In this document: positions 46,069 through 63,403 of the stretch, piece after piece | Numbering within the stretch: position 1 is the stretch's first letter | Layout: each line of letters opens with the position of its first letter | Assembly: GCF_026241205.1 (NCBI RefSeq) | Contig: NZ_JAPFQM010000001.1 | Span: 1,736,001-1,800,000 of the forward strand | Length of the DNA stretch: 64,000 bases | DNA from: Thermomicrobium sp. 4228-Ro | GTDB taxonomy: Bacteria; Chloroflexota; Chloroflexia; Thermomicrobiales; Thermomicrobiaceae | Direction: 5' to 3' | The notes under the pieces: generated by a model | Database searches by the model: none | Told to the model about the DNA's origin: nothing | Seen by the model: the letters and a program-made list of their open reading frames with translations, nothing else | Translations under genes and position numbers: made by a program

Positions 46069-46097
46069 CGTGCGGGACACAGGGATTGGAGGCGCTC

Positions 46098-46544: not shown

Positions 46545-46560
46545 GCCGGGTAGGTGAGCG

Positions 46561-48546
46561 ATGGCGCAGCTCGGTTCCGGAGCGCTGATTCTCGCTTTGA
46601 TCCTTTCGCTCTACGGCATCGTGGCCAGCCTGCTGGGTGCACGGCGGCGTTTTTCGGAATTGCTCGAGAGCGGGTTCCGGGCGACCTACGGGGTCGCTGC
46701 TCTCGTCACGCTGGCCGTCTTCGCGCTCGTCATGTCGTTCGTGCGCCATGATTTCCGTCTCGCCTACGTGGCTGCACGCTCGAGCCGCGACATGCCGCTC
46801 CATTACGTGATCGCCGCCTTCTACGGTGGACAAGAGGGAAGTCTCCTCTACTGGACGATGATCGCGAGCGTCCTGGGAGCACTCGCCCTATACCTGCATC
46901 GTCATTCAGATCGGCAGCTGGTGCCGTACATGAATGCCACCTTGCTCTCGATTCTCACGTTCCTTCTGCTTGTGCTGACCGTGGTAGCGAGTCCGTTTCG
47001 GTTGCTACCGGTTACTCCTCCTGATGGAGCAGGACTCAACCCGCTCCTGCGCGATCCGGGCATGGTGGCGCACCCGCCGTTTCTGCTCGCTGGATACGCC
47101 AGTTTCAGCGTGCCGTTCGCGTTCGGCATGGCGGCTCTGCTGACCGGGCGGCTGGGGTCTGACTGGCTTCGTGCGATCCGGCGCTGGACGCTGCTCTCCT
47201 GGGCCATTTTGGGTATGGGGCTCCTGATCGGAGCGTGGTGGGCCTACCATGTGCTCGGATGGGGTGGCTACTGGGGTTGGGATCCGGTCGAGAATCTCGC
47301 ATTGCTGCCCTGGCTGACCGGTACAGCGTTCCTCCACTCGATCATCGTGCAGGAACGGCGCGGCATGCTGAAAGTTTGGAACCTGGCCTTGCTCCTGGCA
47401 ACATTCGCGCTGAGCGTGTACGGCACGTTCATCGTCCGGAGCGGTATCTTGTCCTCCGTCCACTCGTTCGCGACCTCGGATATCGGTCATTGGTTTCTCG
47501 TGTATCTCGCGCTGGTGCTCGTCTTCGGGGTCGGTCTCCTCCTCTACCGGCTGCCCGGGCTGCAGAGCGAGCGGCGAATCGAGTCGATCTCGTCTCGGGA
47601 GGCCGGGTTCCTGTTCAACAACCTGCTCCTCACCGCGATCGCGTTCGCCGTCTTCTGGGGGACGAACTTCGTGCTCTTCAGTGAACTCTTCTGGGAAACG
47701 CGCATTTCGGTCGGGCCTCCGTTCTACAACCGAGTCGTCGGCCCACTGTTGCTCGTTCTGCTCGTGCTTATGGCAGTCGGCCCGGTGCTTTCCTGGCGAC
47801 GCACGGAGCTTCCGCTCTTCATTCGCAACGTCCGCTGGCCGCTCGCTGGTGCGATCGTCGTGACGATCGTCGGGCTCATCGTCTGGGAGCGGGCATGGGC
47901 TGCGTTCGCGTTCGGTGTCGTCACTGCAGCGACGCTGGTCACGCTCCAGGAGTTCTGGCGAGGGATCGCAGCGCGTCGCAGAATGACGCGAGAACATGCC
48001 GTGCTCGCTGCCTGGCGCTTGATCCAACGGAACAACCGTCGCTACGGCGGCTATGTCGTGCATCTCGCGGTACTCTTGATCGCCGTCGGTGTGATCGCAT
48101 CCAACGCATTCCAGGTCGAGCGACAGTTCGTTCTCCGCCCCGGCGAGCAGGGACAGATCGGCCCGTATACGGTCGTCTACCGTGGGCTGGATGACCGTCG
48201 TACGGCTGATGCGGAGATCGTTTCTGCGATCGTCGATGTCTATCGTGGCGATCGCTTCGCCGGAACAGTGGAATCGCACCGGTACTTCTACCGCAACTAC
48301 GAGAATCAGCCGACCGCCCGCATGGGGATCATGCTCGTGGGTAAGGACGACATCTATGTGGTGCTCGATCGGTGGGAGGACGACGGCACCGCGAGCCTGC
48401 GGGTCTATATCAATCCGCTCGTGATCTGGATCTGGATCGGGGCCGCGATTTTCCTGCTCGGCACGTTGACACTCTTCTGGCCGCAACCGGTTCCGGCGAC
48501 GGTGCGCGTGCCGCAGACCGTACCGGGAGTCGTGAGCGAGGCGTGA
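46561..48546 (+). CDS. ccmF: cytochrome c heme lyase subunit CcmF
   Basis: The 661-residue polytopic protein is of CcmF length with 13-15 membrane segments. It contains the tryptophan-rich WWD motif GWGGYWGWDPVENLALLPWL, the conserved GSLLYWTM and HPPFLLAGY segments, and a large soluble loop near the C-terminus (about 500-625) before the last helix. It transfers heme from CcmE to reduced apocytochrome together with CcmH. 16 nt after ccmE. Confidence 0.95.
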   Translation: MAQLGSGALILALILSLYGIVASLLGARRRFSELLESGFRATYGVAALVTLAVFALVMSFVRHDFRLAYVAARSSRDMPLHYVIAAFYGGQEGSLLYWTMIASVLGALALYLHRHSDRQLVPYMNATLLSILTFLLLVLTVVASPFRLLPVTPPDGAGLNPLLRDPGMVAHPPFLLAGYASFSVPFAFGMAALLTGRLGSDWLRAIRRWTLLSWAILGMGLLIGAWWAYHVLGWGGYWGWDPVENLALLPWLTGTAFLHSIIVQERRGMLKVWNLALLLATFALSVYGTFIVRSGILSSVHSFATSDIGHWFLVYLALVLVFGVGLLLYRLPGLQSERRIESISSREAGFLFNNLLLTAIAFAVFWGTNFVLFSELFWETRISVGPPFYNRVVGPLLLVLLVLMAVGPVLSWRRTELPLFIRNVRWPLAGAIVVTIVGLIVWERAWAAFAFGVVTAATLVTLQEFWRGIAARRRMTREHAVLAAWRLIQRNNRRYGGYVVHLAVLLIAVGVIASNAFQVERQFVLRPGEQGQIGPYTVVYRGLDDRRTADAEIVSAIVDVYRGDRFAGTVESHRYFYRNYENQPTARMGIMLVGKDDIYVVLDRWEDDGTASLRVYINPLVIWIWIGAAIFLLGTLTLFWPQPVPATVRVPQTVPGVVSEA

Positions 48547-48549
48547 GCG

Positions 48550-49065
48550 ATGGCTCGTCGGAGTTCGAGACTGGACATGCCTCAGAGCTCGTTGATCCGG
48601 ACGATACGGGTCGTCTTGACCGTATTGGTGCTCGGCGCGCTGCTCGTCCTACCGATTCGACACGTGACAGCCGAAGAGGCACTTTCACCCGAAGCGTTGG
48701 AGATCGCGAATCAACTCAATTGTCCGGTGTGTCAGGGGCAGAGCGTGCGGGACTCCAACTCCGAGCTGGCTCGTCAGATGCGTCAGCTCATCCAACAGAA
48801 GCTCGATCAGGGTGAGTCGCGCGAGCAAATCCTGCAGTACTTCGTCGATCGATACGGCGTCGGGATCTTGCGGGAACCACCGCACGAAGGTTTCTTGTGG
48901 CTCCTCTGGTGGGGACCAGTTGTCGGGCTCGCTGTCGGCATCATCATCGTCGTCCTCTATCTTCGCCATCGTGGTGCGAGTGCCGACACACTGGTCGACG
49001 AGGTATCGCCTGAGACGCTCGCCCAGATCGAGCACTGGCTCGGTGCAGAAGGGGAGGCACGTTGA
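48550..49065 (+). CDS. ccmH: cytochrome c maturation protein CcmH
   Basis: The 171-residue protein has a signal/anchor (about 20-40), the redox motif LNCPVCQGQSVRDS (Cys58, Cys61), the three-helix domain NSELARQMRQLIQQKLDQGESREQILQYFVDRYGVGIL, and a C-terminal membrane helix (about 117-140). It reduces or holds the CXXCH thiols of apocytochrome c in the heme lyase. The stop overlaps the next start by one base. Confidence 0.95.
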   Translation: MARRSSRLDMPQSSLIRTIRVVLTVLVLGALLVLPIRHVTAEEALSPEALEIANQLNCPVCQGQSVRDSNSELARQMRQLIQQKLDQGESREQILQYFVDRYGVGILREPPHEGFLWLLWWGPVVGLAVGIIIVVLYLRHRGASADTLVDEVSPETLAQIEHWLGAEGEAR

Positions 49066-49448
49066 TGCTCTGGGGCACGCTCGTCCTGCTCGTGGTCGCG
49101 GTCGCCATCGTCGCGTTCGTCCTGCAACCGTTGTGGATCGCGCACCGAAGACCCTCCGCGATCGCTCCTTGGCCTGCTGTCCTGTTGGATCTCTTTGCCG
49201 AACGCGACGTGATTCTCGCGGCGCTCCGGGATCTCCAACTGGACTACGAGACTGGTAAGGTGTCCGGTGACGAGTACCGGAAGATGCGCGCCTCGCTGCT
49301 GGCTGAAGCTGCACGAGTCTTGCGCGCCATCGAGGACGTGAATCGTGAGGTCGAGGCCAGTATCGAGGTTGAGATCGCGCATCTTCGCGAACTCGCCAGG
49401 CAGGTCGATTCGACGACATCGACATCAGCTGCTGGTGCACTCTCATGA
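49065..49448 (+). CDS. CcmI-like c-type cytochrome biogenesis protein (short)
   Basis: The 127-residue protein starts at the ATG overlapping the ccmH stop (TGATG). One N-terminal helix (about 2-22) is followed by a cytoplasmic coiled region containing LRDLQLDYETGKVSGDEYRKMRASLLAEA, the segment shared by CcmI N-terminal domains. The TPR apocytochrome-binding half of proteobacterial CcmI is absent. Likely a scaffold of the heme lyase. Confidence 0.75.
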   Translation: MLWGTLVLLVVAVAIVAFVLQPLWIAHRRPSAIAPWPAVLLDLFAERDVILAALRDLQLDYETGKVSGDEYRKMRASLLAEAARVLRAIEDVNREVEASIEVEIAHLRELARQVDSTTSTSAAGALS

Positions 49449-50182
49449 CGCATCCGACTGCGCTCATCGGGCGTGACGAACCGGTTCTCGCCGTGGAAGG
49501 ACTGACGAAGCGGTACGGCTGGAAAACGGCACTGACTGGAGTAGGTTTTTCGGTCTTTCCCGGCGAGTGCCTGTTGATCGTCGGCCCGAATGGCGCTGGG
49601 AAGACGACGCTCCTCCGGATTCTGGCTGGACTCACGCGCCCCACCAGTGGTGCGATCTCGTGGTTCGGTCAGCAGCACTCCAGCGTACCGCTCGCAGTCC
49701 GAGCGCGCCTCGGTGTGGTCATGCACCGGACGATGCTCGATCCCGATCTGACGGTCGCGGAGAATCTCCGGTACTACGCTCGGCTGTATCGGGTGGCGGA
49801 TGTCGATACTCGGATCCGCGAGGTCGCTGAGCTGGTGGGCGTCGCGGAACGACTGCAGGAGCGGGTGCGTCAGCTCTCGCGCGGGTTCCAGCAGCGAGTC
49901 GCGCTGGCGCGGGCGGTGTTGCACAAGCCTGCCGTCCTGCTGCTCGATGAACCGGATACTGGACTCGATCGTGCGAGTCGTGCACGTCTCCGGACACTGC
50001 TCAGCCAGCATCGGCAGACGGGTGGAGCGGTGCTGCTGACGACGCACGCGCACGAGTTCGGCATGGAGGTCGCAACGCGAGCGCTTTATTTGGATCGTGG
50101 TCAGGTTGTCTGGGAGGCGACGGGGGTCGAGCAGGTACGCGAGAAGCTGGCAGGGACGGTCGTTCCTCTGATGTCGGTTTAG
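49445..50182 (+). CDS. ccmA: heme exporter ATP-binding protein CcmA
   Basis: The 245-residue ABC ATPase has Walker A GPNGAGKTT, signature LSRGFQQRVALARA and Walker B VLLLDEPDTGLD. The ATG overlaps the preceding stop by four bases. With CcmB and CcmC it drives release of holo-CcmE from the membrane complex. Confidence 0.94.
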   Translation: MTHPTALIGRDEPVLAVEGLTKRYGWKTALTGVGFSVFPGECLLIVGPNGAGKTTLLRILAGLTRPTSGAISWFGQQHSSVPLAVRARLGVVMHRTMLDPDLTVAENLRYYARLYRVADVDTRIREVAELVGVAERLQERVRQLSRGFQQRVALARAVLHKPAVLLLDEPDTGLDRASRARLRTLLSQHRQTGGAVLLTTHAHEFGMEVATRALYLDRGQVVWEATGVEQVREKLAGTVVPLMSV

Positions 50183-50184
50183 CG

Positions 50185-50847
50185 ATGTGGGGACAGCTCC
50201 TGGCCATACTCTACCGCGATCTCCTGTCCGAATGGCGGGAGCGCGAGGTCGTGGTCGGCATGCTCGTCATGGCGTTGCTGACACTCCTGATCTTCAATTT
50301 CGCTTTCGACCTTACCGGGGCGCAGCGAGCCGCCAGTGGGTCCGGAGCCTTCTGGGTCGCGGTCGTCTTCGCGACACTGCTGGGGCTCGGGCGGGCGGCA
50401 GCGCTGGAGCGTCAGGATGGCGCATGGGAAGGGCTTGTGCTCGCGCCGGTGGAGCGTCCGGTCATCTATGTCGCCAAGTTGTCGAGCATGTTGCTTTTCG
50501 TCGCTCTCGTGGAGGTGGTTGCGCTGGTCGTCATGGCTGCATTGTTCGGCTTGCCAGTTTTCCGTCCGGGTGTGCTTGTGGTTCTCGTGCTCGGGACGGT
50601 CGGTCTCTGCGCGCTCGGAACGCTGTTCAGCGTCATGACCGCTCAGGCCAAGGCACGAGAGGTACTGCTTCCGGCACTCCTCTTTCCCCTGGCGATCCCA
50701 GTAGTGATCGGTGGCGTGCGCGCGATGATGCTGGAACTGAGCGGGCTCGGTAGCGAGGCAGCGCCCTGGAAGAGCCTGCTCGCCGGGTTCGCCGGACTGT
50801 TCCTGTCGCTGAGCATGCTGACCTTCGGAGTCGTGACCGAGGAGTGA
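50185..50847 (+). CDS. ccmB: heme exporter permease CcmB
   Basis: The 220-residue membrane protein begins LLAILYRDLLSEWREREVVVGMLVMALLTLLIFNFAF, typical of CcmB, with six hydrophobic segments and LERQDGAWEGLVLAPVERPVIYVAKLSSMLLF in the middle. It starts 2 nt after the ccmA stop. It forms the membrane part of CcmABCD. Confidence 0.94.
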   Translation: MWGQLLAILYRDLLSEWREREVVVGMLVMALLTLLIFNFAFDLTGAQRAASGSGAFWVAVVFATLLGLGRAAALERQDGAWEGLVLAPVERPVIYVAKLSSMLLFVALVEVVALVVMAALFGLPVFRPGVLVVLVLGTVGLCALGTLFSVMTAQAKAREVLLPALLFPLAIPVVIGGVRAMMLELSGLGSEAAPWKSLLAGFAGLFLSLSMLTFGVVTEE

Positions 50848-50882
50848 CGTCACCGCTGTCGTAGTCGAGAGGAGGACTTTCG

Positions 50883-51578
50883 ATGAGTGAGCAACCCCGC
50901 GCCTCGCTATGGCTCACGATACTGGGTACGGCTTCGTTTGCCCTGATTGCGCTTTCGGTCGCAATGATCTTCCTGTATGCACCGGCAGATGCGACCCAGG
51001 GTGGCGTGCAACGACTGTTCTACCTCCACCTTCCTGCAGCATGGCTCGCATATGTCTCCTTCTTCATCATTTTCGTCAGTAGTATCGCGTTCCTGCTCCG
51101 CGGAACCGTCGGGTGGGACCGCCTGGCACGGTCCGCTGCCGAACTCGGCTTCATCTTCACCACGCTGGTACTCCTGACCGGATCGATCTGGGGCCGACCG
51201 ATTTGGGGAACGTGGTGGACGTGGGATGCGCGTCTGACGACGACACTGATTCTCTGGTTCATCTACCTGGGCTATTTCTTGCTGCGAGCCTACATCGCTG
51301 ATCCGGAGCGCGGCGCACGTTACGCTGCAGTTCTCGGTATCGTCGGGTTCGTCGATATCCCGATCATCCATATGTCGGTGCGCTGGTGGCGGACGCTCCA
51401 CCCGCAACCGATCGTGGTGCGGAGCGAGGGACCAGCGATGCCCACCGAGATGCTGCTGACGATGCTCGTCACACTGGTCGCGTTCTGTGTCCTGTATGCG
51501 TTTTTGCTGATCGTGAAGTACCGGATCGAGACAGTGCGTGACGAACTCTTGGCCCTGCGAGCAGCAACCATGAACTAG
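50883..51578 (+). CDS. ccmC: heme-handling membrane protein CcmC
   Basis: The 231-residue protein has six membrane helices, a periplasmic WWD motif GRPIWGTWWTWDARLTTTLILWFIYLGY, and conserved His in LFYLHLPAAWLAYVSFF and PIIHMSVRWWRTLHPQP. It presents heme to CcmE. ATG behind GAGAGGAGG. Confidence 0.95.
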   Translation: MSEQPRASLWLTILGTASFALIALSVAMIFLYAPADATQGGVQRLFYLHLPAAWLAYVSFFIIFVSSIAFLLRGTVGWDRLARSAAELGFIFTTLVLLTGSIWGRPIWGTWWTWDARLTTTLILWFIYLGYFLLRAYIADPERGARYAAVLGIVGFVDIPIIHMSVRWWRTLHPQPIVVRSEGPAMPTEMLLTMLVTLVAFCVLYAFLLIVKYRIETVRDELLALRAATMN

Positions 51579-51881: not shown

Positions 51882-54185
51882 TCACGAATTCCGTGCTGAG
51901 CGAATAGCCTGCCAGATCCGCTCGGGAGTCAGCGGCATGTCGAGGTGCTCGATCCCGAGCGGTCGAAGGGCATCCAGCACGGCATTGACGAGTGCCGGTG
52001 GTGCGGCGGTCGTCCCCGCTTCGCCGATTCCCTTGGCGCCCAGAGGATTGATCGGACTTGGTGTCTCGCAGTGCGCCGTCTCGATCGACGGGACCTGCGT
52101 GGCCCGGGGAACGACATAATCGAGAAAGCTCTGTGTGAGCGGTTGGCCGCTTTCGGAATAGAGAATCGCCTCGAAGAGCGCCTGGCCGAGTCCTTGAGCG
52201 ACACTGCCGTGAATCTGCCCCTCGGCCAAGAGCGGATTCACGATCCGCCCGCTGTCGTCGACCGCAAGATAGCGGAGCACTCGAACTTCACCGGTTTCCG
52301 GATCGATTTCGACCATGGCGATATGCACACCGAACGGAATGTTCCGTCGACCAGGGTTGAAGAAGCGTGTCGCCTCGAGGCCGGGCTCGACACCGCCCGG
52401 TGGGCCTTCCATCACGTAGGCGAGCCGCGTGACCCGGTCCCATGCGATCGAGCGGTCGGGAACGCCGCGCACGGTGAAGACTCCATCGCGGTAGTCGAGA
52501 TCCGCGGGATCGACTTCGAGCGCATGGGCAGCGATGAAGCGCGCCTTCTCCAGGACCTCCTGCGCAGCCAAGTAGGCCGCGGACCCACCCAGCGCCGTGC
52601 TCCGACTGCCGAACGTGCCGATACCTTGCTGAATAGCAGCAGTATCACCGGTTACGGCACGGATACGCTCGAGCGGCAGCTCGAGGATCTCGCCGACGAC
52701 TTGCGCGAGCATGGTGGCGTGCCCTTGCCCACTGGGAGCGATCCCGCAGAGCACGGTCACCGATCCGTCCGGATGAGCACGGACCGTCGCTGATTCCCAC
52801 CCCGGCCCGGAGAGTTCGCAAAAACTCGCGATCCCGATGCCGACCAGGCGTCCCTGGGCGCGCAGTGTCGCTTGCTGACGGCGTGCTGCCGCGTAGTCGA
52901 AGCACCGGAGCGCTTCGGCCAGAACGGCGGGGTAATTGCCGCTGTCGTACGGCACACCGGTGGGTGACGTGTAGGGGAAGTCCTCCGGTCGCAAGAGGTT
53001 CTTCTGACGGATGGTGACGGGATCAAGGCCCAGGCGGCTCGCAGCCGCGTCCATGAGACGCTCGAGCAGGTAACTTGCCTCCGGTCGACCAGCGCCACGA
53101 TAGGCGGACTGCGGTGTCGTGTTCGTCACGACGCATCGGATGCGCAAGCGGATCGTGGGTACGCGATAGGGTCCAGCGAGCGCGAAGCCGGTCAGGACGG
53201 CAGTCGGACGCGTCGGTGAAGCGTTCCAGGCACCGAGATTGCTCACGATGTCCGCATCGAGCCCCAGGAGCGTCCCATCTCGCCGAAATGCCGCTCGGAC
53301 GCGTTGTCGCTGATCACGCCCGTGGTTCGTGGCGACGAAGCTCTCCGAGCGCGTCTCGACCCACTTGATCGGCTGCTGGAGTTTCCAGGCCAAGGCCGCA
53401 ACCAGCACGTATTCCGGGTACAGACCTCCCTTCGCACCGAACGCTCCCCCGACGTCGGGTGCGATGACTCGAATCTGATGCTCGGGAAGACCGAGTACAG
53501 TGGCAATGCCGGCGCGCAACGTATGCGGGGTTTGCGTCGAGGCCCACACGGTCAGTTGACGGCTTTGCGCATCATAGGTCGCTGCTGCAGCGCGTGGCTC
53601 CATGAACGCGGCATGGACACGCTGATTGACGAGTTCGAGCTCGACGACCACGTCAGCGTCGCGGAAGACTGCCTCGATGTCACCGTGCTGGTGGTCCCAC
53701 GCGAACGCGATGTTGTCCGGCCATTCGGGATGGACGCGTGGTGCCTCCGAGAGGAGCGCTGTTTCAGGATCCACGACCGCGGGAAGCTCGTCGTACTCGA
53801 CCATGATCTCCGCAGCTGCGTCGATCGCGGCCGCACGCGTTTCAGCTAGGACAGCAACGACACCTTCGCCGACGTACCGGACCCGATCGATCGCCAGGGG
53901 ATACCGCTGTTGCGGCCGCGCAGCGGCTGACTGCGGTGGTGTGGGGAACGGTGCGATCCAACTCGCGAGGTCGGTGCCACGGAACGCGGCGACGAATCCC
54001 CGGACGCGTGCTGCCCCGCTCCAATCGATACGGGCAATCGTCGCGTGCGGATACGGGCTGCGGACGATCACGAGGGAGAGTGCTCGCTCGAGCCGTATGT
54101 CATCGGTGAAGTTCGACAGGCCGCGGAGGAAGCGCTCGTCCTCCAGGCGCCGGATACTTCGACCGAGATAACGACCTTCCGTCAC
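51882..54185 (-). CDS. orphan molybdenum hydroxylase large subunit (CoxL/XdhB-like, AYRGAGR type)
   Basis: This 767-residue protein starts at GTG 54185 behind GAGAGGGGG. The aldehyde-oxidase hammerhead domain (about 1-130) is followed by the molybdopterin-binding domain with GGAFGAKGGLYPEY, the active-site loop AYRGAGR (361-367), GQGHATMLAQV, and the catalytic Glu722 in AKGIGEAG. The loop is not the AYxCSFR of form I CO dehydrogenase. No FeS or FAD subunit is encoded beside it; it ends the accessory operon, 103 nt after the Nudix gene. It may use CoxS/CoxM from the upstream operon. Substrate unknown. Confidence 0.88.
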   Translation of the reverse strand: MTEGRYLGRSIRRLEDERFLRGLSNFTDDIRLERALSLVIVRSPYPHATIARIDWSGAARVRGFVAAFRGTDLASWIAPFPTPPQSAAARPQQRYPLAIDRVRYVGEGVVAVLAETRAAAIDAAAEIMVEYDELPAVVDPETALLSEAPRVHPEWPDNIAFAWDHQHGDIEAVFRDADVVVELELVNQRVHAAFMEPRAAAATYDAQSRQLTVWASTQTPHTLRAGIATVLGLPEHQIRVIAPDVGGAFGAKGGLYPEYVLVAALAWKLQQPIKWVETRSESFVATNHGRDQRQRVRAAFRRDGTLLGLDADIVSNLGAWNASPTRPTAVLTGFALAGPYRVPTIRLRIRCVVTNTTPQSAYRGAGRPEASYLLERLMDAAASRLGLDPVTIRQKNLLRPEDFPYTSPTGVPYDSGNYPAVLAEALRCFDYAAARRQQATLRAQGRLVGIGIASFCELSGPGWESATVRAHPDGSVTVLCGIAPSGQGHATMLAQVVGEILELPLERIRAVTGDTAAIQQGIGTFGSRSTALGGSAAYLAAQEVLEKARFIAAHALEVDPADLDYRDGVFTVRGVPDRSIAWDRVTRLAYVMEGPPGGVEPGLEATRFFNPGRRNIPFGVHIAMVEIDPETGEVRVLRYLAVDDSGRIVNPLLAEGQIHGSVAQGLGQALFEAILYSESGQPLTQSFLDYVVPRATQVPSIETAHCETPSPINPLGAKGIGEAGTTAAPPALVNAVLDALRPLGIEHLDMPLTPERIWQAIRSARNS

Positions 54186-54288: not shown

Positions 54289-54798
54289 TCACGTTCTGGA
54301 ACGACCGGTGCGCCAATCGGCGAGGATCCGCTCGTCATGGAGAAAGGCGAGAGGCGGCAATGCATCGAGGATGAACCACTGGACAGCGTGGCTCTCCTCG
54401 CTCGGACGGATGTCACCGCCGACCGGATGTCCTTCGTAGACGACGAGCACGACCGGATGGCCGCGGTGCGAGTACACCCCGACGAGCCGGTCGAGCTCGA
54501 CCGCAACGCCGGTTTCCTCGAAGACTTCTCTCTTCGCGGCATCCTCGAGTCGCTCACCGCGCTCGACGAATCCCGACGGGAAACTCCAGAGTCCGAGGCC
54601 CGGTTCGATCGCACGCTGTTGCAAGAGGATGCGGTCATCGCACACCACGATAACCGCCACGGCCACCTTCGGGTCACTGAAAAACGGCCGATCGCACCGT
54701 GGGCAGTAGGGTCGGAGGCGACCGGCGACCAGCCGAGGCTCGAGATCAGCTCGACAATAGGGACAGTGGCGGATATCCTCGTCGAAGTTCGGTGTCAT
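54289..54798 (-). CDS. Nudix hydrolase with N-terminal zinc ribbon
   Basis: The 169-residue protein has a four-Cys ribbon (Cys12, Cys15, Cys32, Cys35) and a complete Nudix box G76-x5-E-x7-REVFEETGV. Ribbon-plus-Nudix resembles NADH pyrophosphatase-like and related enzymes that split X-P-P-Y diphosphates using Mg2+. It overlaps the MocA-like gene by four bases, so it is translationally coupled to cofactor-modifying genes. Its substrate is not apparent; a dinucleotide cofactor is one possibility (inference). Confidence 0.9.
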   Translation of the reverse strand: MTPNFDEDIRHCPYCRADLEPRLVAGRLRPYCPRCDRPFFSDPKVAVAVIVVCDDRILLQQRAIEPGLGLWSFPSGFVERGERLEDAAKREVFEETGVAVELDRLVGVYSHRGHPVVLVVYEGHPVGGDIRPSEESHAVQWFILDALPPLAFLHDERILADWRTGRSRT

Positions 54799-55439
54799 CG
54801 CTCGCGTCGCCCTTCCGTGCAGAGATGCTGTGCCCGCTCGATGTCCTCGGGGGTGTCCAGGTCGAGCGGCATCGGTCGATGGCGAGCATCGTACTCGACG
54901 ATCGCCTCAGCATACCTCGCCAGGACAGGGCGGGCACCAGTGTCGCCCACAAGTTCGGCCAGTTCGTCGAAAAGACGACGACTGATGAGCACAGGATTCC
55001 CCGGCCCGTCGGCGTAGCGCGGGCGAACGACGAGTGCGCCAGTTGTCGAAAAGAGCTCGATCAGACCATCGATCGTTGCTGGCTCGATGAAGGGCTGATC
55101 GCCGAGAATGAACACGGCCGCATCGCACTCCGGTGGAACAGCGGCGAGACCGACCCGGACCGACGAGCTCTGTCCCTCCTCCGGGTGTTCGTTGAGCACG
55201 GTCGTACAGCCGTGCGTGTCGAGTAACGCCAGGTGCTCGGCGACGGTCGGATTGATGACCAGGATAACCGGTGAGAGACGCGTTCGCCGAACTGCATCGA
55301 TGACATGTTGGAGCGCAGGCTTCCCGCAGAGTTCGACCAGCTGTTTCGGCCGGCCTAAGCGCGTCGACAGTCCTGCTGCCAGTATGACGCCGGCGACGCG
55401 TGGCACGCTCCGATCTCTTTCCGCTGGCCGCAGACTCAC
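54795..55439 (-). CDS. mocA: MocA-like molybdenum cofactor cytidylyltransferase
   Basis: The 214-residue nucleotidyltransferase begins VAGVILAAGLSTRLGRPKQLVELCGKPALQHVIDAV, the MobA/MocA signature, with GDQPFIEP for metal binding and YADGPGNPVLISRRLFDEL. MocA attaches CMP from CTP to molybdopterin, giving the MCD cofactor used by xanthine dehydrogenase-family enzymes. Context among cox/xdh accessory genes supports this. Overlaps both neighbours by four bases. Confidence 0.87.
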   Translation of the reverse strand: MSLRPAERDRSVPRVAGVILAAGLSTRLGRPKQLVELCGKPALQHVIDAVRRTRLSPVILVINPTVAEHLALLDTHGCTTVLNEHPEEGQSSSVRVGLAAVPPECDAAVFILGDQPFIEPATIDGLIELFSTTGALVVRPRYADGPGNPVLISRRLFDELAELVGDTGARPVLARYAEAIVEYDARHRPMPLDLDTPEDIERAQHLCTEGRRER

Positions 55440-56221
55440 TCGCCCGGGACTGGTGCTGGTTCTGACTTCGCCGGACGGAGCGGTTGGCCATAGCGACCGC
55501 GGCGAACCGCGATGATCTCGGCGAGTATACTCACCGCGATTTCGGCCGGTGTTTTCGCACCGATATCGATCCCGATCGGTGCGTGGATACGGGCGAGGTC
55601 TTGGTCGCTGAAACCGGCGCGGCGGAGGCGTTCCAGGCGCTGCTGACTGGTCTTCCGGCTGCCGATGGCGCCGATGTAGCCCGCCCGCGAGCGCAGCGCG
55701 ACCTGGAGAGCCGGGTCTTCGAACTTCTCGTCGTGTGCCAGAACGACGATATCGGTCTGTGGCGTGATCTTGATCTGCGCGAGAGCCTCGTCGGGCCAGG
55801 CGACGATCAGCTGATCGGCATGCGGGAACCGCTCACGTGTGGCGAAGAACTCCCGTGCGTCGATCACGGTCGTTCGATAGCCGAGTTCCTTCGCCATCGC
55901 GACGAGCGGGATAGCGATATGGACAGCGCCGATCACGACGAGATGCCGTGGTGGTAAATGCGCCTCCAGGAACACCTCGACTTGACGGCCATCGGAGAGC
56001 GAATACGTCCGGATTCCAGCCTCACCGCTCTCGAACAATGCCTCGGCATCCGCTCGCACTGCTGCTTCGAGCTCTGCCGAGCCGAGCGTGCCGACCGTGC
56101 GACCGTCCTCGTAGATCAGAAGCTTTGCGCCGAGTGGCTCACCGCTGACGACCGTTGCGGTGACGACCGCCTCCTCCTCAGCGAGTGCATACCGGAGTGC
56201 TTCGAAGACCTCACCAGTCAT
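55436..56221 (-). CDS. XdhC family protein, Rossmann-domain half
   Basis: The 261-residue protein has a degenerate N-terminal XdhC domain (about 1-80) and the C-terminal XdhC Rossmann domain: HLVVIGAVHIAIPLVAMAKELGYRTTVIDAREFFATRERFPHAD, VLAHDEKFEDPALQVALRSRAGYIGAIGSRKTSQQRLERL, and IHAPIGIDIGAKTPAEIAVSILAEI. XdhC/CoxF proteins bind molybdenum cofactor and install the terminal sulfur before insertion into the apoenzyme. The N-terminal half lacks the GGC motif carried by the separate small protein encoded upstream. Confidence 0.88.
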   Translation of the reverse strand: MTGEVFEALRYALAEEEAVVTATVVSGEPLGAKLLIYEDGRTVGTLGSAELEAAVRADAEALFESGEAGIRTYSLSDGRQVEVFLEAHLPPRHLVVIGAVHIAIPLVAMAKELGYRTTVIDAREFFATRERFPHADQLIVAWPDEALAQIKITPQTDIVVLAHDEKFEDPALQVALRSRAGYIGAIGSRKTSQQRLERLRRAGFSDQDLARIHAPIGIDIGAKTPAEIAVSILAEIIAVRRGRYGQPLRPAKSEPAPVPGE

Positions 56222-56538
56222 GGCTTTCTCACCAACGGTTCCACGAAGACATCGATCGTCCCACCACAGCTGAGACCGACATCCCAGGCCTGTTCATCGG
56301 AGATGCCGTAGCGCACGAGACGCGGCTGCCCCGTCTCGAGCACTTCGAGAGCGACCTCGAAGACCGCGCCTTCGACGCAGCCGCCGCTGACCGATCCAGC
56401 CAGACGCCCGGAACGGGTGACTGCCATCTTGGCACCGACTGGGCGTGGCGACGAGCCGATCGCCCGGACGACCGTCGCCAGAGCGATCTCCTCACCTTCG
56501 TTCATCCACCGTTCGATTTCGGGCAGAATATCGCGCAT
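56218..56538 (-). CDS. XdhC/CoxI N-terminal domain protein
   Basis: This 106-residue protein corresponds only to the first XdhC/CoxI domain: EIERWMNEGEEIALATVVRAIGSSPRPVGAKMAVTRSGRLAGSVSGGCVEGAVFEVA, and LSCGGTIDVFVEPL. The two conserved Cys (SGGC, SCGG) are present here and absent from the larger partner, whose ATG overlaps this stop by four bases. Together they make a two-chain XdhC. Confidence 0.88.
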   Translation of the reverse strand: MRDILPEIERWMNEGEEIALATVVRAIGSSPRPVGAKMAVTRSGRLAGSVSGGCVEGAVFEVALEVLETGQPRLVRYGISDEQAWDVGLSCGGTIDVFVEPLVRKP

Positions 56539-56551
56539 CGTCGACCTCCAT

Positions 56552-57805
56552 TCAGGCGGCTGAAGCCTCCGGAAGCACCGCGTGCTGGCGGCGGACAGGC
56601 CGCTTCTGGTCGATCCGACTCAAGTGTTTGGCGAGTGCTTCCAGGCTCGCAAAGTTGTGGATGGGCATGAAGTCATCGATGTACGGCAAGGCTGCCTGCA
56701 TACCGCGCGTCAACGGCTCGTAGCGCGGCGAGCCGAGCAGCGGGTTGAGCCAGATCAAGCGGTAGCACGACCGTTGCAGGCGCGCCATTTCCCGCGCGAG
56801 GACATCCGGGTCGCCGCGGTCCCAGCCGTCGCTGATGATGAGGACGACAGCTCCGTTGCGGAGCACGCGTCGTGCCCACTCCTGGTTGAAGGTCTGGAGG
56901 GACTGACCGATACGCGTCCCACCGGACCAGTCTTGGACCTCCCGCGCCACGCGCCGCATCGCCTCGTCGATATCCTGATGCTTGAGCAGGCGAGTGACAC
57001 GGGTGAGGCGCGTTCCGAAGACGAACGCTTCCACCTTGGCCATGCCGTTCTCGATGGCGTAGATGAACTGCAAGAGGATGCGGCTATACCGGTCCATCGA
57101 GCCGCTGACGTCGCAAATCACGACCAACTGGCGCGGCTTCGTCTTCGTCTCGCGCCGCGCGATCGTCAAGGGGACGCCGCCAGTCTGGAGCGAGCGCCGC
57201 ATGGTTCGTCGCGGATCGATGAAGCGACCCTTAGGAGACGCGACCTTGCGGCGCGAGCGACGCCGGCCAATCTCCCACGTCAGCTGCTGCATGAAGCGGC
57301 GGATCTGCGCGAGCTCCTCCTCGGTGAAGTCCGCAAAATCCTTCTCGCGCAAGACTTCAGCCGGGCTGTAGCTGAAGGCATCGGTCAGCGACTCTTCGTC
57401 GCTCGCTTCACCTTCCTCTGCTTCCTCGATCGCTTCGACCGCTTCGAGCCGCCGGCCGCGTGCACCTTCGATCGTCTTCCCTTCAGTCTCCTCCGCCTCC
57501 TCGCCCTCTTCGGGAGCCAGCTCGATCAGATCATCGGGCTCGGCCTGCTGGAGAAGCCCGTCGTGCAACTCGGGCTTGGCTCGCCAGTACAGGTCGAACA
57601 GTCGGTCGAAGACTGGCATGTCGTCCTTGTGCGTGACGAGACACGCCCGCGCCGCTTCGCGGAACTCCTCGCGCCGGCTGATATCGATGTGCTCGATCGC
57701 GCGCACGAAGTCCATCGCCTGACCGGTCGTCGTCTTCACTCCGGCACGGCGCAGTAACCGCGCGAAGGCGAGTGCGCGCTGGGCGAAATTCATCGTCGCC
57801 GTCAT
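56552..57805 (-). CDS. coxE: VWA-domain protein of the cox cluster (CoxE)
   Basis: The 417-residue protein starts at ATG 57805 behind AGAGGTTGGG. The N-terminal helical part is followed by an acidic Glu-rich segment (about 110-150), and then a C-terminal VWA domain with the MIDAS motif CDVSGSMDRYS and TRIGQSLQTFNQEW. CoxE-type proteins act with the CoxD AAA+ ATPase, encoded just upstream, to mature the bimetallic or molybdenum active site. 13 nt separate it from the small XdhC gene. Confidence 0.9.
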   Translation of the reverse strand: MTATMNFAQRALAFARLLRRAGVKTTTGQAMDFVRAIEHIDISRREEFREAARACLVTHKDDMPVFDRLFDLYWRAKPELHDGLLQQAEPDDLIELAPEEGEEAEETEGKTIEGARGRRLEAVEAIEEAEEGEASDEESLTDAFSYSPAEVLREKDFADFTEEELAQIRRFMQQLTWEIGRRRSRRKVASPKGRFIDPRRTMRRSLQTGGVPLTIARRETKTKPRQLVVICDVSGSMDRYSRILLQFIYAIENGMAKVEAFVFGTRLTRVTRLLKHQDIDEAMRRVAREVQDWSGGTRIGQSLQTFNQEWARRVLRNGAVVLIISDGWDRGDPDVLAREMARLQRSCYRLIWLNPLLGSPRYEPLTRGMQAALPYIDDFMPIHNFASLEALAKHLSRIDQKRPVRRQHAVLPEASAA

Positions 57806-57844
57806 CGTTCCCAACCTCTGTGAAGCCCGAATGGGCCGAGTGGT

Positions 57845-58741
57845 TCACTCCTGAGTCGCCGTAGCGACGAGTTCCTCGAGCCGCTTCTTGCGGATATGCT
57901 GGAGATCCTCCTGATGCTTGAGAATGGCGCCGAGTGTCGCTGACGCGATCTCGACGCTGAGCTGGCTCTGGTTGAGCGCCAGCAAGGCCGCGGCCCAGTC
58001 GAGCGTCTCGGCGACTCCAGGGAGCTTGTACAGGTCCTCGCGCCGCAGCGCCTGGATGAAACGGGCGACCTGCAGTGCCAGGCGTTCCGGAATCCCCGGA
58101 AGCTTGACGCGCAGGATCTCGAACTCCTTCTCCAAGGTCGGATAGTCGATCCAATGGTAGAGACAGCGTCGCTTCAGCGCGTCGTGGAGCTCTCGCGTCC
58201 GATTCGAGGTGATGATGACGTACGGTGGGTGCTCGGCACGGATCGTTCCGATCTCCGGGATCGTGATCTGGAAGTCCGAGAGGAGCTCCAGCAGGAAGGC
58301 CTCGAACTCCTCGTCGGCGCGGTCGATCTCGTCGATCAAGAGCACTGGTGGCTTGCCGCGATGCCGGATGGCCTTGAGGAGCGGCCGCTCGATCAGGAAC
58401 TCCTCGCTGAAGATTTCGTGCATCGCGGTATCCCAGCCGACCTGCTGGTCCTCCAGCAACCGGATCGCCAGCATCTGGCGTGGATAGTTCCACTCGTAGA
58501 CCGCATGGTTCACATCGAGGCCCTCGTAGCACTGGAGACGAATGAGGTCGGTGTCGAGCACCTGCGCTAGTACTTTGGCGACCTCCGTCTTGCCGACGCC
58601 TGCCTCCCCTTCCAGGAGCAACGGCTTCGGCAACCTCAGCGCCAGATAGATCGCGGTCGCCAGGCTGGTATCACACACGTATCGATGGGCAGCAAGAGCT
58701 CGCTGGACCGCCTCGACTGATGTCAGTTCGGTAATCGTCAC
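57845..58741 (-). CDS. coxD: MoxR-type AAA+ ATPase (CoxD)
   Basis: The 298-residue ATPase (GTG start) has Walker A EGEAGVGKTE (about 44-53), Walker B PVLLIDEIDRAD, sensor 1 VIITSNRTREL and Arg finger region LKRRCLYHWIDYP. MoxR proteins are chaperone-like partners of VWA proteins; in CO-oxidising bacteria CoxD is needed for insertion of sulfur and copper into CoxL. First gene of the accessory operon, with its own promoter at 58777-58785. Confidence 0.92.
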   Translation of the reverse strand: MTITELTSVEAVQRALAAHRYVCDTSLATAIYLALRLPKPLLLEGEAGVGKTEVAKVLAQVLDTDLIRLQCYEGLDVNHAVYEWNYPRQMLAIRLLEDQQVGWDTAMHEIFSEEFLIERPLLKAIRHRGKPPVLLIDEIDRADEEFEAFLLELLSDFQITIPEIGTIRAEHPPYVIITSNRTRELHDALKRRCLYHWIDYPTLEKEFEILRVKLPGIPERLALQVARFIQALRREDLYKLPGVAETLDWAAALLALNQSQLSVEIASATLGAILKHQEDLQHIRKKRLEELVATATQE

Positions 58742-58860: not shown

Positions 58861-59727
58861 TCAGCCGTGGGCGCGCTGGACCGCCTGGGTGAGGGCCCGC
58901 TTGACGAAGACGCGTGTCAGGTGCGCCCGGTACTCCTCGCTGGCGAAGATGTCGCTGTTGAAAGACATACCGTCGCTTGCCAGCTGGCTGGCAGCCTCGA
59001 TCGCTTCTGCCGTCGGTTCCTTCCCGACCAGCGCCTCTTCGACGTTCTGCCGTCGCACGGCGTACGGCCCGGCACCGGTCACGCCGACGCGTACTGCGCT
59101 CACCTTACCGTCTTCACCCAGTGTCACCACGGCGGCTACGCCGACGACCGCATAACCCGAGGCCGGGTTGGCGAATTTCTGGTACGACATCCCGGTGCGG
59201 GCCGGCGGCTTCGGAATCGCGATTTCAGTCAGGATCTCGTTCGGCTGCAGTGCGGTCGTAAAGAGATCGACGAAGAACTGATCGGCCGGGATCGTCCGCT
59301 CACCATTCGGGCCGACGGCCTTGATCTCGGCACCGAGTGCGAGTACCACCGCCGGGAGATCCGCAGCCGGGTCGGCGTGTGCCAGCGAACCACCGATCGT
59401 GCCCATGTTGCGGACCTGAAGGTCACCGATCACGTCGATCGCCTCCGGGAGGATCGGTAGCACGCGCTGCACGAGGTCCGATCGCTGGATATCGTCGTAC
59501 CGGGTCATCGCACCGATCACGACTCGGTCACCGGCGTCCCGGATGCCAGTAAGTTCCGGAATGCGCGAAATGTCGATCAGAGCCGACGGCGTGGCCAGCC
59601 GGAGCTTCATGGCTGGAATCAAGCTGTGTCCGCCGGCCAGAAGCTTCGCATCAGGATTCTCGACCAGGAGCTTCAGTGCTTCCTGGACGGAGCCAGCTCG
59701 GTAATAGGTAAAGGTGCTCGGGTACAT
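58861..59727 (-). CDS. coxM: molybdenum hydroxylase FAD-binding (medium) subunit, CoxM-like
   Basis: The 288-residue protein starts at ATG 59727 behind GGAAGGGGAGC. It has the FAD-binding motifs AGGHSLIPAMKLRLATPSALIDI and TIGGSLAHADPAADLPAVVLAL of the CoxM family, and a C-terminal CO dehydrogenase flavoprotein domain. It carries electrons from the FeS subunit to the quinone pool or another acceptor. Last gene of the coxG-S-L-M operon. Confidence 0.93.
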   Translation of the reverse strand: MYPSTFTYYRAGSVQEALKLLVENPDAKLLAGGHSLIPAMKLRLATPSALIDISRIPELTGIRDAGDRVVIGAMTRYDDIQRSDLVQRVLPILPEAIDVIGDLQVRNMGTIGGSLAHADPAADLPAVVLALGAEIKAVGPNGERTIPADQFFVDLFTTALQPNEILTEIAIPKPPARTGMSYQKFANPASGYAVVGVAAVVTLGEDGKVSAVRVGVTGAGPYAVRRQNVEEALVGKEPTAEAIEAASQLASDGMSFNSDIFASEEYRAHLTRVFVKRALTQAVQRAHG

Positions 59728-59789
59728 CGTCCGCTCCCCTTCCGTTCTCCTCAACGAGACTGGAGCGTTCCAGCCTCCGATCACTCTCG

Positions 59790-62141
59790 TCAACGCGACC
59801 GCTCGCGGATCGCTCGCCAGATCCGCTCCGGCGTCAAGGGCATGTCGATGTGGTCGATGCCGAAGGGCGCGAGCGCATCGATGACTGCATTGACGACGGC
59901 AGGCGTCGAGGCGATCGTGCCGGTTTCGCCAGCGCCCTTGATGCCCATCGGGTTGACCGGTGTCGGTGTGACCGTGCGATCGACCGTGAACGATGGCAGC
60001 ATGCTCGCCTTAGGAATCGCGTAGTCCATCAAGGAGGCGCTCAATAGCTGCCCGTTCTCGTCGTAGGCAGCGAACTCGTACACGGCCTGTGCAAGTCCCT
60101 GCGCGATACCACCGTGCACCTGCCCATCGACGATCATGGGGTTGATCACATTCCCCACATCGTCGACGGCCACGTACTTCAGGAATTGGACTTTCCCGGT
60201 CTCGGGGTCGACCTCGACCACACAGATGTGACAACCGAACGGGAAGGTGTTGTTGATCGGATCGAAGAAATGCGTGGCTTCGAGTCCCGGCTCGATCTCG
60301 CGCGGTAGCTTCCAGGCGAGATACGCCTGCAGGGCGACCTCCTGGAACGTCATACCCCGATCCGGCGCACCCTTGACGAAGAACCGGCCGTTCTCGAAGG
60401 CCAGATCCTCGGGCGATACCTCAAGGAGATGGGCTGCGATCCGCTGCGCCTTCTCTTTGACCTTCCGGCACGCGTGAACGAGAGCAGCGCCACCGACTGC
60501 TGTGCTGCGGCTTCCGTAGGTGCCCATCCCGAACGGCACCATTTCAGTGTCGCCGTGCACGATCTCGACGTCCTCGAACGGGACACCCAGTTCGTCGGCG
60601 ACCAGCTGCGCGAAAGTCGTTTCCTCGCCTTGCCCGTGCGGGTTGGAGCCGGTGAAGACGGTCACCTTGCCGGTCGGATGCACGCGCACCGTCGCGCTCT
60701 CCCAGAGCCCGCCCTGGAAGCCCATCGCACCTGCAGCCTGGGAGGGAGCCAGGCCGCACACTTCCACGTATGTCGAGAAGCCGATCCCGATGTACCGCCC
60801 TTGCTGGCGCAGCTCGGCTTGCTGCCGCCGGAGGTTCTGATAATCGACCAGCTCGAGCGCCTTGTCGAGCGTCGCTTCGTAATCGCCGCTGTCGTACTGG
60901 AGCCCGGTCGGGGTCGTATAGGGGAACTTGTCCTTCGGAATGAAGTTCTTGCGGCGAATCTCCGCCGGATCCATGCCGAGTTCACGGGCGAGGAGATCGA
61001 TCATCCGCTCGAGCAGGTAGGTCGCTTCTGGTCGCCCAGCACCTCGATAGGCATCGGTCGGCGTGGTGTTCGTCAGCACGCCGTAGACGTCGCAGTGGAC
61101 GACCGGGATGGCATACGCTCCTTGCAGCATCAAGCCGAACAGCCAGGTCGGAACACCGGGTGCTGCAGTGGAGAGGTACGCCCCCATGTTGGCGTAGGCA
61201 CGGACTCGTACACCGGTGATCGTTCCATCGCGCTTGGCGGCGATATCGACGTACTGGATATGGTCACGCCCGTGAATCGTCGCGACGTAGTTCTCCTGAC
61301 GGGTTTCGATCCACTTGATAGGTCGGCCGAGGTCCTTGCTGATCGCTGCCGCGATCATCTCACCGGCGTACATCGGGATCTTGCTGCCGAAGCCGCCACC
61401 CACATCGGTCGCGATGACGCGGATCTGCGTCTCCGGTAGGCCCGTAACCGCAGAGAGCAGCAACCGGTGCACGTGCGGGTTCTGGCTCGTGCACCAGATC
61501 GTCAGTTCACCGGTGCCGGGGTTGTAGGCTGCCAGGGCGCCTCGCGGCTCCATCGCGGTCGGGATCAGCCGGTGGTTGATCAAGCGGCGCGACACACGCA
61601 CTTCGGCCGCGTTCCAGGCCGCCTCGAAGTCGCCAGCGTGCAACTTCCAGTGGAAGGCGAGGTTGTTGGGAACGTCATCGTAGAGTTGCGGAGCACCCGG
61701 CTCCAGGGCCTTCTCTTGGTCGACGACAGCTGGGAGCGGCTCGTACTCGACCTCGATCGCCTCGACTGCGTCCTGGGCGATGTACCGGTTTTCGGCGACA
61801 ACGACTGCCACGGCATCGCCGACGTAGCGCACCTTGTCGACGGCGACAGCGCGATACGGCGGCACCTTGAGGTCGCTATCCGGAATCAGCCAGGCACACG
61901 GTACCGGGGCCAGCTTATCGACGAGATCCTGCCCGGTGTACACCGCGACCACTCCAGGCATCGCCCGTGCCTTGCTCGTATCGATCCGGACGATGCGAGC
62001 GTGGGCATGCGGACTTCGCTTGATCGCCATGACGAGCGTGCCAGGGAGCCGGATGTGATCCGTGAAATTCCCGCGACCGGTGATGAGTCGCGGATCCTCG
62101 CGTCGCTTGACTGCTGCGCCGAACAGTTTGGTGACAGCCAT
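59790..62141 (-). CDS. coxL: molybdenum hydroxylase large subunit, form II CoxL-like
   Basis: The 783-residue catalytic subunit begins FGAAVKRREDPRLITGRGNFTDHI, as in CoxL. The active-site loop is AYRGAGR (364-370), the form II / generic signature, and not the Cys-containing AYxCSFR of form I CO dehydrogenase. GGGFGSKIPMYAGE, GQGEETTFAQLV and Glu739 in KGAGETG complete the molybdopterin site. CO oxidation by form II enzymes is unproven, so substrate remains open (CO, aldehyde or N-heterocycle). Encoded between coxS and coxM, as in G-S-L-M operons. Confidence 0.92.
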   Translation of the reverse strand: MAVTKLFGAAVKRREDPRLITGRGNFTDHIRLPGTLVMAIKRSPHAHARIVRIDTSKARAMPGVVAVYTGQDLVDKLAPVPCAWLIPDSDLKVPPYRAVAVDKVRYVGDAVAVVVAENRYIAQDAVEAIEVEYEPLPAVVDQEKALEPGAPQLYDDVPNNLAFHWKLHAGDFEAAWNAAEVRVSRRLINHRLIPTAMEPRGALAAYNPGTGELTIWCTSQNPHVHRLLLSAVTGLPETQIRVIATDVGGGFGSKIPMYAGEMIAAAISKDLGRPIKWIETRQENYVATIHGRDHIQYVDIAAKRDGTITGVRVRAYANMGAYLSTAAPGVPTWLFGLMLQGAYAIPVVHCDVYGVLTNTTPTDAYRGAGRPEATYLLERMIDLLARELGMDPAEIRRKNFIPKDKFPYTTPTGLQYDSGDYEATLDKALELVDYQNLRRQQAELRQQGRYIGIGFSTYVEVCGLAPSQAAGAMGFQGGLWESATVRVHPTGKVTVFTGSNPHGQGEETTFAQLVADELGVPFEDVEIVHGDTEMVPFGMGTYGSRSTAVGGAALVHACRKVKEKAQRIAAHLLEVSPEDLAFENGRFFVKGAPDRGMTFQEVALQAYLAWKLPREIEPGLEATHFFDPINNTFPFGCHICVVEVDPETGKVQFLKYVAVDDVGNVINPMIVDGQVHGGIAQGLAQAVYEFAAYDENGQLLSASLMDYAIPKASMLPSFTVDRTVTPTPVNPMGIKGAGETGTIASTPAVVNAVIDALAPFGIDHIDMPLTPERIWRAIRERSR

Positions 62142-62194: not shown

Positions 62195-62665
62195 TCAGCT
62201 CCCGCTGCGCATCTTCTCAGCCGCGTATTGGATCGCTCGCACGATGTTCTGGTAACCGGTGCAGCGGCACAGGTTCCCCTCGATCGCGTGGCGGATTTCC
62301 TCTTCCGTCGGATTCGGGTTGCGCTGGAGGAAGTCGACTGCGGTCATGATCATGCCGGGCGTGCAGTACCCGCACTGCAGGCCGTGCTTTTCCCAGAACC
62401 CTTCCTGAACCGGGTGCAGCTGCCCGTCGCGGGCCAGCCCCTCGATCGTGGTGATTTCGGCCCCGTCGGCCTGCACCGCGAAGATCGTGCAGGACTTGAC
62501 TGCCTTGCCGTTCATCAGGATGGTGCAAGCACCGCACTGGCTGGTGTCGCACCCGATATGCGTCCCAGTGAGGTTGAGTACGTCGCGGAGATAATGGACG
62601 AGCAAGAGTCGCGGTTCGACGTCGTGCGTGTAGGTCACGCCGTTGACGGTAACGGTGATCTGCAT
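62195..62665 (-). CDS. coxS: molybdenum hydroxylase [2Fe-2S] (small) subunit, CoxS-like
   Basis: The 156-residue protein binds two [2Fe-2S] clusters: a plant ferredoxin type (Cys39, Cys44, Cys47, Cys59) in the N-terminal half and the helical type (Cys98, Cys101, Cys133, Cys135; [21 protein letters not shown]) in the C-terminal half. It passes electrons from the molybdenum site in CoxL to FAD in CoxM. Confidence 0.95.
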
Positions 62666-62716: not shown

Positions 62717-63163
62717 CTACTGGCTCGCTCCCATATTGCGCTCGATACAGGAGAAAAACTGCTCGATCATCCGTTTGGCGACACCTCCCAGCATCCGCTG
62801 CGCAACACCGGCGAAGGGGCCACCCAGCTCGACATCACCTTCGTAGACGATTTCGGTCGTCTGCTCGTCGACAGCTCTCAGCTGGACCGAACCGTTCCCG
62901 CGGGCAAAGCCGGGCTTCCCCTGTCCCTCGATCGCCATCCGGTATGACTCGGGTGGATTGATATCGGAGAGCTGAACTTTCCCGGTGAAGGTACCCTTGA
63001 CTGGACCGATCGCCACCGTCATCGCCATTTCGTACTGGTCCGGCGCGACCCGGTTGAGTTGCTCGACACCGGGTAGACAATTGGCGATAGCCTGTGGATC
63101 GGTCAGCTGGGAAAAGACCGCTTCGCGCGGCGCTCGAATCGTGTACGAACCTGAGATTTTCAC
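62717..63163 (-). CDS. coxG: CoxG-type SRPBCC protein
   Basis: The 148-residue protein starts at GTG 63163 behind GGAAGGGAGCG. It reads VKISGSYTIRAPREAVFSQLTDPQAIANCLPGVEQL and YEGDVELGGPFAGVAQRMLGGVAKRMIEQFF, typical of CoxG (carbon monoxide dehydrogenase subunit G). CoxG proteins bind a hydrophobic partner and have been linked to membrane attachment or quinone delivery. First gene of the operon, downstream of a strong promoter. Confidence 0.92.
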   Translation of the reverse strand: MKISGSYTIRAPREAVFSQLTDPQAIANCLPGVEQLNRVAPDQYEMAMTVAIGPVKGTFTGKVQLSDINPPESYRMAIEGQGKPGFARGNGSVQLRAVDEQTTEIVYEGDVELGGPFAGVAQRMLGGVAKRMIEQFFSCIERNMGASQ

Positions 63164-63304: not shown

Positions 63305-63333
63305 ATCATACGGCCGATCTTGAGCATGGTCAA
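63305..63333 (-). promoter_or_regulatory. promoter of coxG-S-L-M
   Basis: TTGACC (63333-63328) and TATGAT (63310-63305) are spaced by exactly 17 nt on the minus strand, the best -35/-10 pair in the window. Transcription would start near 63297, leaving a leader of about 134 nt before coxG. No operator was recognised. Confidence 0.75.
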
Positions 63334-63383: not shown

Positions 63384-63403
63384 GGGGGCATGCACAGAGT
63401 GGC

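Follow-up and report, generated by a model that had tools for sequence, protein, structure and literature searches.

We find that the molybdenum hydroxylase large subunit (L2) encoded at the end of an 11-gene cox operon in the window, the whole 64,000-nucleotide stretch of Thermomicrobium sp. 4228-Ro DNA analyzed here, probably uses the CoxS and CoxM subunits of its own operon, such that L2 and the upstream large subunit, L1, would be alternative catalytic subunits, with L2 acting on a different, non-CO substrate. As part of this explanation, L2 is read from its sequence as a likely active large subunit of the aldehyde-oxidoreductase or "form II CoxL" type. The operon has the order coxG-S-L1-M-D-E-F, xdhC, mocA, NUDIX, L2, and its features, in window coordinates, are as follows.

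51882..54185, minus strand: L2, molybdenum hydroxylase large subunit, 767 aa (domains, active-site loop, catalytic Glu, predicted fold)
54289..54798, minus strand: NUDIX hydrolase, 169 aa (domain search); its gene immediately precedes L2 in nearly all orthologous loci
54795..55439, minus strand: MocA-type molybdenum cofactor NTP (cytidylyl) transferase, 214 aa (domain/model search)
55436..56221, minus strand: XdhC family maturation factor, 261 aa (domain/model search)
56218..56538, minus strand: CoxF/XdhC_CoxI domain protein, 106 aa (domain/model search)
56552..57814, minus strand: CoxE, VWA domain protein, 420 aa (domain search)
57845..58741, minus strand: CoxD, AAA+ ATPase, 298 aa (domain/model search)
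58861..59793, minus strand: CoxM, FAD subunit, which L1 and L2 are proposed to share (domain/model search)
59790..62141, minus strand: L1, CoxL-type large subunit, 783 aa, with an AYRGAGR loop, form II type (domain/model search)
62195..62665, minus strand: CoxS, [2Fe-2S] subunit, which L1 and L2 are proposed to share (domain/model search)
62717..63163, minus strand: CoxG; the listed frame opens at 63391, but a GTG start at 63163 agrees with the COXG domain and with the orthologues
63305..63333, minus strand: candidate sigma-70-like promoter preceding coxG, TTGACC-N17-TATGAT, proposed from consensus match alone

Operon neighbors are spaced by -4 to ~+120 nt on a single strand, with overlaps of 4 nt or gaps of 13-119 nt, and G-S-L-M and the "maturation" genes therefore look like one operon. 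The first-pass annotation had described L2 as standing without FeS or FAD partners, in an operon that otherwise makes only maturation factors; the first statement is correct for the immediate neighbors of L2 but not for the operon, which contains both S and M, and the second fails for the same reason and because the NUDIX protein is, to our knowledge, not among known maturation factors. Convergent with the end of L2 on the plus strand (46086-51578) are genes of cytochrome c maturation, namely ccmE, ccmF, ccmH, an ABC transporter gene, ccmB and a ccmC-like gene.

The L2 frame runs on the minus strand from a GTG start at 54185, preceded by GAGAGGGGG, to a stop at 51882. A profile search recovers, complete, the three domains that define the large subunit of the xanthine oxidase/molybdenum hydroxylase family (Ald_Xan_dh_C, 4e-19; MoCoBD_1, 3e-86; MoCoBD_2, 7e-84), and an AlphaFold model (pLDDT 90.5, pTM 0.90) has as its closest PDB fold the CoxL of 8uem (TM 0.93), with a TM of 0.93 to 4ZOH when normalised to 4ZOH. 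Frame, domains and predicted fold thus agree with the earlier claim of a complete 767-residue large subunit, and the coordinates, length and gene order first assigned are borne out by the frame and domain searches. The AYRGAGR loop lies at residues 361-367 and the catalytic Glu is E722 in a GxGE motif, present in 17/17 L2 rows that cover the position; the GQG motif, the active-site loop and the catalytic Glu are all kept across the L2 clade. Since orthologues occupy the same place in ~20 genomes (83-49% identity) and evolve with a dN/dS of ~0.03-0.07, L2 is not a chance open frame.

These orthologues follow XdhC-MocA-NUDIX in genomes of the order that include the Sphaerobacter-like G026, many with G-S-L-M upstream on the same contig, and the arrangement in which D-E-F-XdhC-MocA-NUDIX-L2 follows G-S-L-M is maintained up to the rank of order. 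In G055 the operon is interrupted by a 7.5 kb insert with gene order kept, and the L2 of G051 lies alone among unrelated genes, away from any cox operon. L2 is dispensable, since G015 has lost it and the rest of the operon stays; at this locus (L135, 1345-3990) a molybdopterin oxidoreductase of another superfamily (PF00384) follows NUDIX in place of L2. Within the genus L2 is 80-83% identical, versus 95-96% for L1, and L2 evolves faster than the S, L1 and M of the operon. Scanning a genome collection with L2 returns mostly proteobacterial relatives with best segments 34-47% identical, a result uninformative for the operon, and no L2 orthologue is found in the plasmid collection, which supplied reference large subunits.

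Both L1 and L2 carry the AYRGAGR loop, the defining feature of form II CoxL (PMC7248562), and both lack the AYxCSFR loop of form I with its Cu-binding Cys; among the large subunits compared, the form I loop, as AYRCSFR, is found only in a protein on contig C6. The form I model TIGR02416, with a curated cut-off of 991 bits, scores the C6 protein at 1268.9, L1 at 822 and L2 at 605 bits. The top-scoring NCBIfam model for L2 is NF041018 (glyceraldehyde dehydrogenase alpha), at 740.7 bits, below the curated cut-off of 790 bits. The coxS-L-M gene order of form II is that of L1; L2 itself sits 4.7 kb downstream of coxM. Loop and model score rule out L2 as a form I CO dehydrogenase, and, judged by these sequence features, the window operon is on the form II or glyceraldehyde-oxidoreductase-like side, not that of form I CO dehydrogenase, a point that the first-pass annotation did not make.

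The source genome (3.07 Mb, including contigs of 2.05 Mb and 0.91 Mb) encodes nine large subunits (PF20256), five S (PF01799) and five M (PF00941), and each of the five S/M pairs has its own large subunit at its locus. The four large subunits with no S/M at their locus are L2, a tandem pair that we designate L3, and an XdhA-like protein on C6. Searches with PF01799 and PF00941, combined with locus inspection, reveal no unpaired spare S/M pair for L2 in the source genome; a dedicated pair elsewhere, which the first-pass annotation had named as evidence against sharing, is thus absent from it. L2 is therefore an extra large subunit without a private S/M pair in a genome where L outnumbers S and M, the pattern expected of shared-scaffold isozymes like GAOR2/3. 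The same excess is seen in 12/12 family genomes at least 95% complete, where S and M are equal in number and L outnumbers them, with L/S/M counts, in which some large-subunit matches are fragments (G033, G035), of 9/5/5 in G000, G007, G011 and G026, 10/6/6 in G023 and G031, 8/5/5 in G075, 7/5/5 in G015, 7/3/3 in G041 and 4/1/1 in G029. In the less complete drafts G049, G073, G105, G107, G124 and G134, the S and M counts are one or two apart; beyond the family, a single S was counted in each of G051, G053, G055 and G087. The sole S/M pair of G029, G047 and G033 is that of the L2 operon.

Several other large-subunit loci were recorded. The L3 tandem genes (G000:C1:1047681-1052490; locus L082, 7672-12499) are 76% identical mutually, with no S/M nearby; the L3 clade occurs across the class and adjoins coxE/coxD in G003. 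The gene on C6 (G000:C6:744982-745740; locus L083, 9784-12054), XdhA- or 4-hydroxybenzoyl-CoA-reductase-like and without S/M neighbors, scores below all model cut-offs. A frameshift, from either gene decay to a pseudogene or a sequencing error, interrupts the large-subunit gene of a chromosomal M-S-L set (G000:C1 ~410.7-410.9 kb; locus L086, 9146-11492); the corresponding gene appears as a single open frame in G007. The form I CO dehydrogenase region on the 0.91 Mb contig is 80% identical to the megaplasmid of T. roseum DSM 5159, which suggests a Thermomicrobium-like species distinct from T. roseum. That megaplasmid encodes a further large subunit without S/M neighbors, TRD_RS10720 (locus L140, 11998-14361), whose surrounding catabolic cluster includes a ring-hydroxylating dioxygenase. 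On a Halococcus dombrowskii plasmid (locus L142, 7971-10310), no S/M gene is annotated within ~8 kb of an archaeal large subunit, a hint that solitary large subunits may be widespread. The literature searched contained nothing relevant on orphan molybdenum hydroxylase large subunits.

Natural deletions of L1 bear on which large subunit S and M serve. In the draft genomes G029 and G047, L1 is cut to approximately its last 48 codons, flanked by S and M genes that are both intact; the breakpoint is common to both genomes and they carry many synonymous differences, which speaks against one assembly error as the cause. No relocated L1 is found elsewhere in either genome, and other members of the genus carry L1 at 68-72% identity. 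Each of the two genomes encodes a single S and a single M, both within the L2 operon, where L2 is the only large subunit remaining. Between G029 and G047, S differs by 12 synonymous and 0 nonsynonymous changes and M by 23 and 3 (dN/dS 0.04), indicating that both are constrained without L1; L2 differs by 153 and 15 (dN/dS 0.027), and all three genes are thus under strong purifying selection. Other large-subunit genes persist in G029, one of L3 type on C152 and two that are XdhA-like; the L3-type gene of G047 is partial, and XdhA-like genes are also present there. These large subunits could also be users for which S and M were kept.

To compare active sites, the pocket residues of the Sulfolobus tokodaii glyceraldehyde oxidoreductase GAOR2 (PMC4726530) were mapped by alignment onto L1, L2, L3 and form I. 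The equivalents of Arg336 and Gly483 are kept in L2, as is the catalytic Glu. The position of Ile219 is Gly in L2 (G253; 19/19 rows), Ile in 17/18 L1 rows and Ile in 14/14 L3 rows, and that of Phe417, in a column beside a one-residue gap, is Pro in L2 (P461; 19/19), Leu in L1 (18/18) and Phe in L3 (14/14). An Ile219-to-Val change is linked to a wider pocket in GAOR1 (PMC4726530), so that the Gly of L2 suggests, in this single alignment, a still wider one. L2 probably has a wider pocket than L1, and the substrate of L2 is most likely not CO, and would be an aldehyde or N-heterocycle bulkier than the substrate of L1.

The relationship between the two large subunits was assessed by phylogeny. All L2 rows of a 72-row tree fall in one clade (SH-aLRT 100) whose branching broadly tracks species, with the L3 clade as its weakly supported (83) nearest relative; a reduced 32-row tree agrees, and a grouping of L1 with L2 is rejected there (p-AU 0.0004; LG+G4, quick search). 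With its own clade and the union with L1 rejected, L2 is an old, separate paralogue and no recent copy of L1. That L2 might be a decaying tandem duplicate of L1, as their common operon and ~50% identity could suggest, is barely credible given intact L2 frames, a dN/dS of 0.03-0.07 and the old separate clade; a phylogeny showing a decayed duplicate had been named at the outset as evidence that would refute the proposal, and the dN/dS and AU test together rule such a duplicate out.

The other alternatives differ in where the electrons of L2 would go, or in whether there are any. L2 could be a separate enzyme that borrows another S/M pair, e.g., the form I pair on C6, or several pairs promiscuously, as the five S/M pairs of the source genome, the faster evolution of L2 relative to the S, L1 and M of its operon, and the position of the G051 gene away from a cox operon would allow; we consider this unlikely, since three genomes (G029, G047 and G033) have only the S/M pair of this operon and the L2 gene remains in the operon across the order. 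That L2 works by itself, as a molybdenum protein donating its electrons to some carrier other than S and M, is less likely again: at least one S is present in every genome with L2, and the characterised members of this large-subunit fold that we know of all operate together with domains or subunits that carry FeS and FAD, against which can be set the lack of S/M genes adjacent to L2, its solitary copy in G051, and how common large subunits without adjacent partners are. Least likely of these three, and very improbable, is a non-catalytic or maturation-related paralogue, e.g., an assembly platform or a decoy that loads cofactor for L1. Such a role fits the location of L2, which comes directly after MocA and NUDIX and completes the maturation half of the operon, but the catalytic Glu, active-site loop and GQG motif are retained in the L2 clade, L2 is under strong selection after L1 loss in G029 and G047, and G015 retains L1 without L2.

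We thus favor use of the operon's own CoxS and CoxM. L2, without private FeS or FAD subunits, would draw on these two proteins, with L1 and L2 alternating on one S/M electron-transfer scaffold and the D-E-F-XdhC-MocA set, co-expressed by the operon, maturing both. Substrate would be oxidized at the molybdenum site of L2, from which S would take up the electrons in its two [2Fe-2S] clusters; M would then relay them through its FAD to an acceptor that is probably respiratory. The earlier suggestion that the orphan may swap into the upstream complex and change its substrate finds indirect support in the lack of a spare S/M pair, the retention of S, M and L2 after L1 loss, the clade-fixed pocket residues and the S. 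tokodaii precedent described below. A more tentative extension, possible but short of probable, is that the operon S/M is a common scaffold for the whole set (L1, L2, the tandem L3 and perhaps more), a plug-in dehydrogenase whose catalytic subunits are gained and lost; the one S, one M and approximately four large subunits of G029 and G033, some of these matches being fragments, fit this reading. If sharing is true, large subunits annotated as orphans are functional modules, and counting S-L-M sets underestimates the molybdenum hydroxylases that a bacterium can build. The operon and the natural L1 deletions in G029 and G047 make subunit sharing in bacteria directly testable.

A published T. 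roseum locus probably corresponds to this operon. The structural genes trd_1206-1208 and seven maturation genes, trd_1209-1215, have been called a type I CO dehydrogenase, are up two-fold on average in stationary phase, and T. roseum CO dehydrogenase genes show high expression in both phases (PMC6776052); the form I genes of T. roseum are on the megaplasmid, trd_A0564-6 (PMC2615216; locus L143). Because the coxGSLM order and the seven genes match D, E, F, XdhC, MocA, NUDIX and L2, trd_1206-1215 is probably the form II operon including L2, and from gene order and count the equivalent of L2 would be trd_1215. If this match is true, the published type I assignment of trd_1206-1215 may need a second look.

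Among known systems, the putative form II CO dehydrogenase coxSLM clusters (PMC7248562) resemble the window operon in S-L-M order, the presence of CoxG and the AYRGAGR loop, which L2 shares, but the window operon ends in a second large subunit, an arrangement that does not occur in the literature searched. Form I Mo/Cu CO dehydrogenase (CoxMSL) is like L2 in overall fold, as the match to 8uem shows, and differs from the window operon in M-S-L rather than S-L-M order and in the AYxCSFR loop, which the latter lacks. The large subunit of quinoline 2-oxidoreductase (1t3q), a dedicated three-subunit enzyme, has the same fold with 36% identity to L2 in the structural match and, by alignment, Ala, likewise a small residue, at the position of GAOR2 Ile219 that is Gly in L2; by sequence score it belongs to a branch separate from L2. 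The closest functional parallel to the proposed sharing is S. tokodaii GAOR2/GAOR3 (PMC4726530; PDB 4ZOH), where purification showed two large subunits on one M/S, with M/S as the constant part and L as the exchangeable part that sets substrate specificity. These proteins and L2 have in common the YRGAGR loop and the GIGEAG catalytic motif, and differ in that Ile219 and Phe417 of GAOR2 are replaced in L2, which also falls under the NF041018 cut-off. In the archaeon S. tokodaii neither L gene is near those for M/S; here both L genes, S, M and the maturation genes lie in one conserved bacterial operon.
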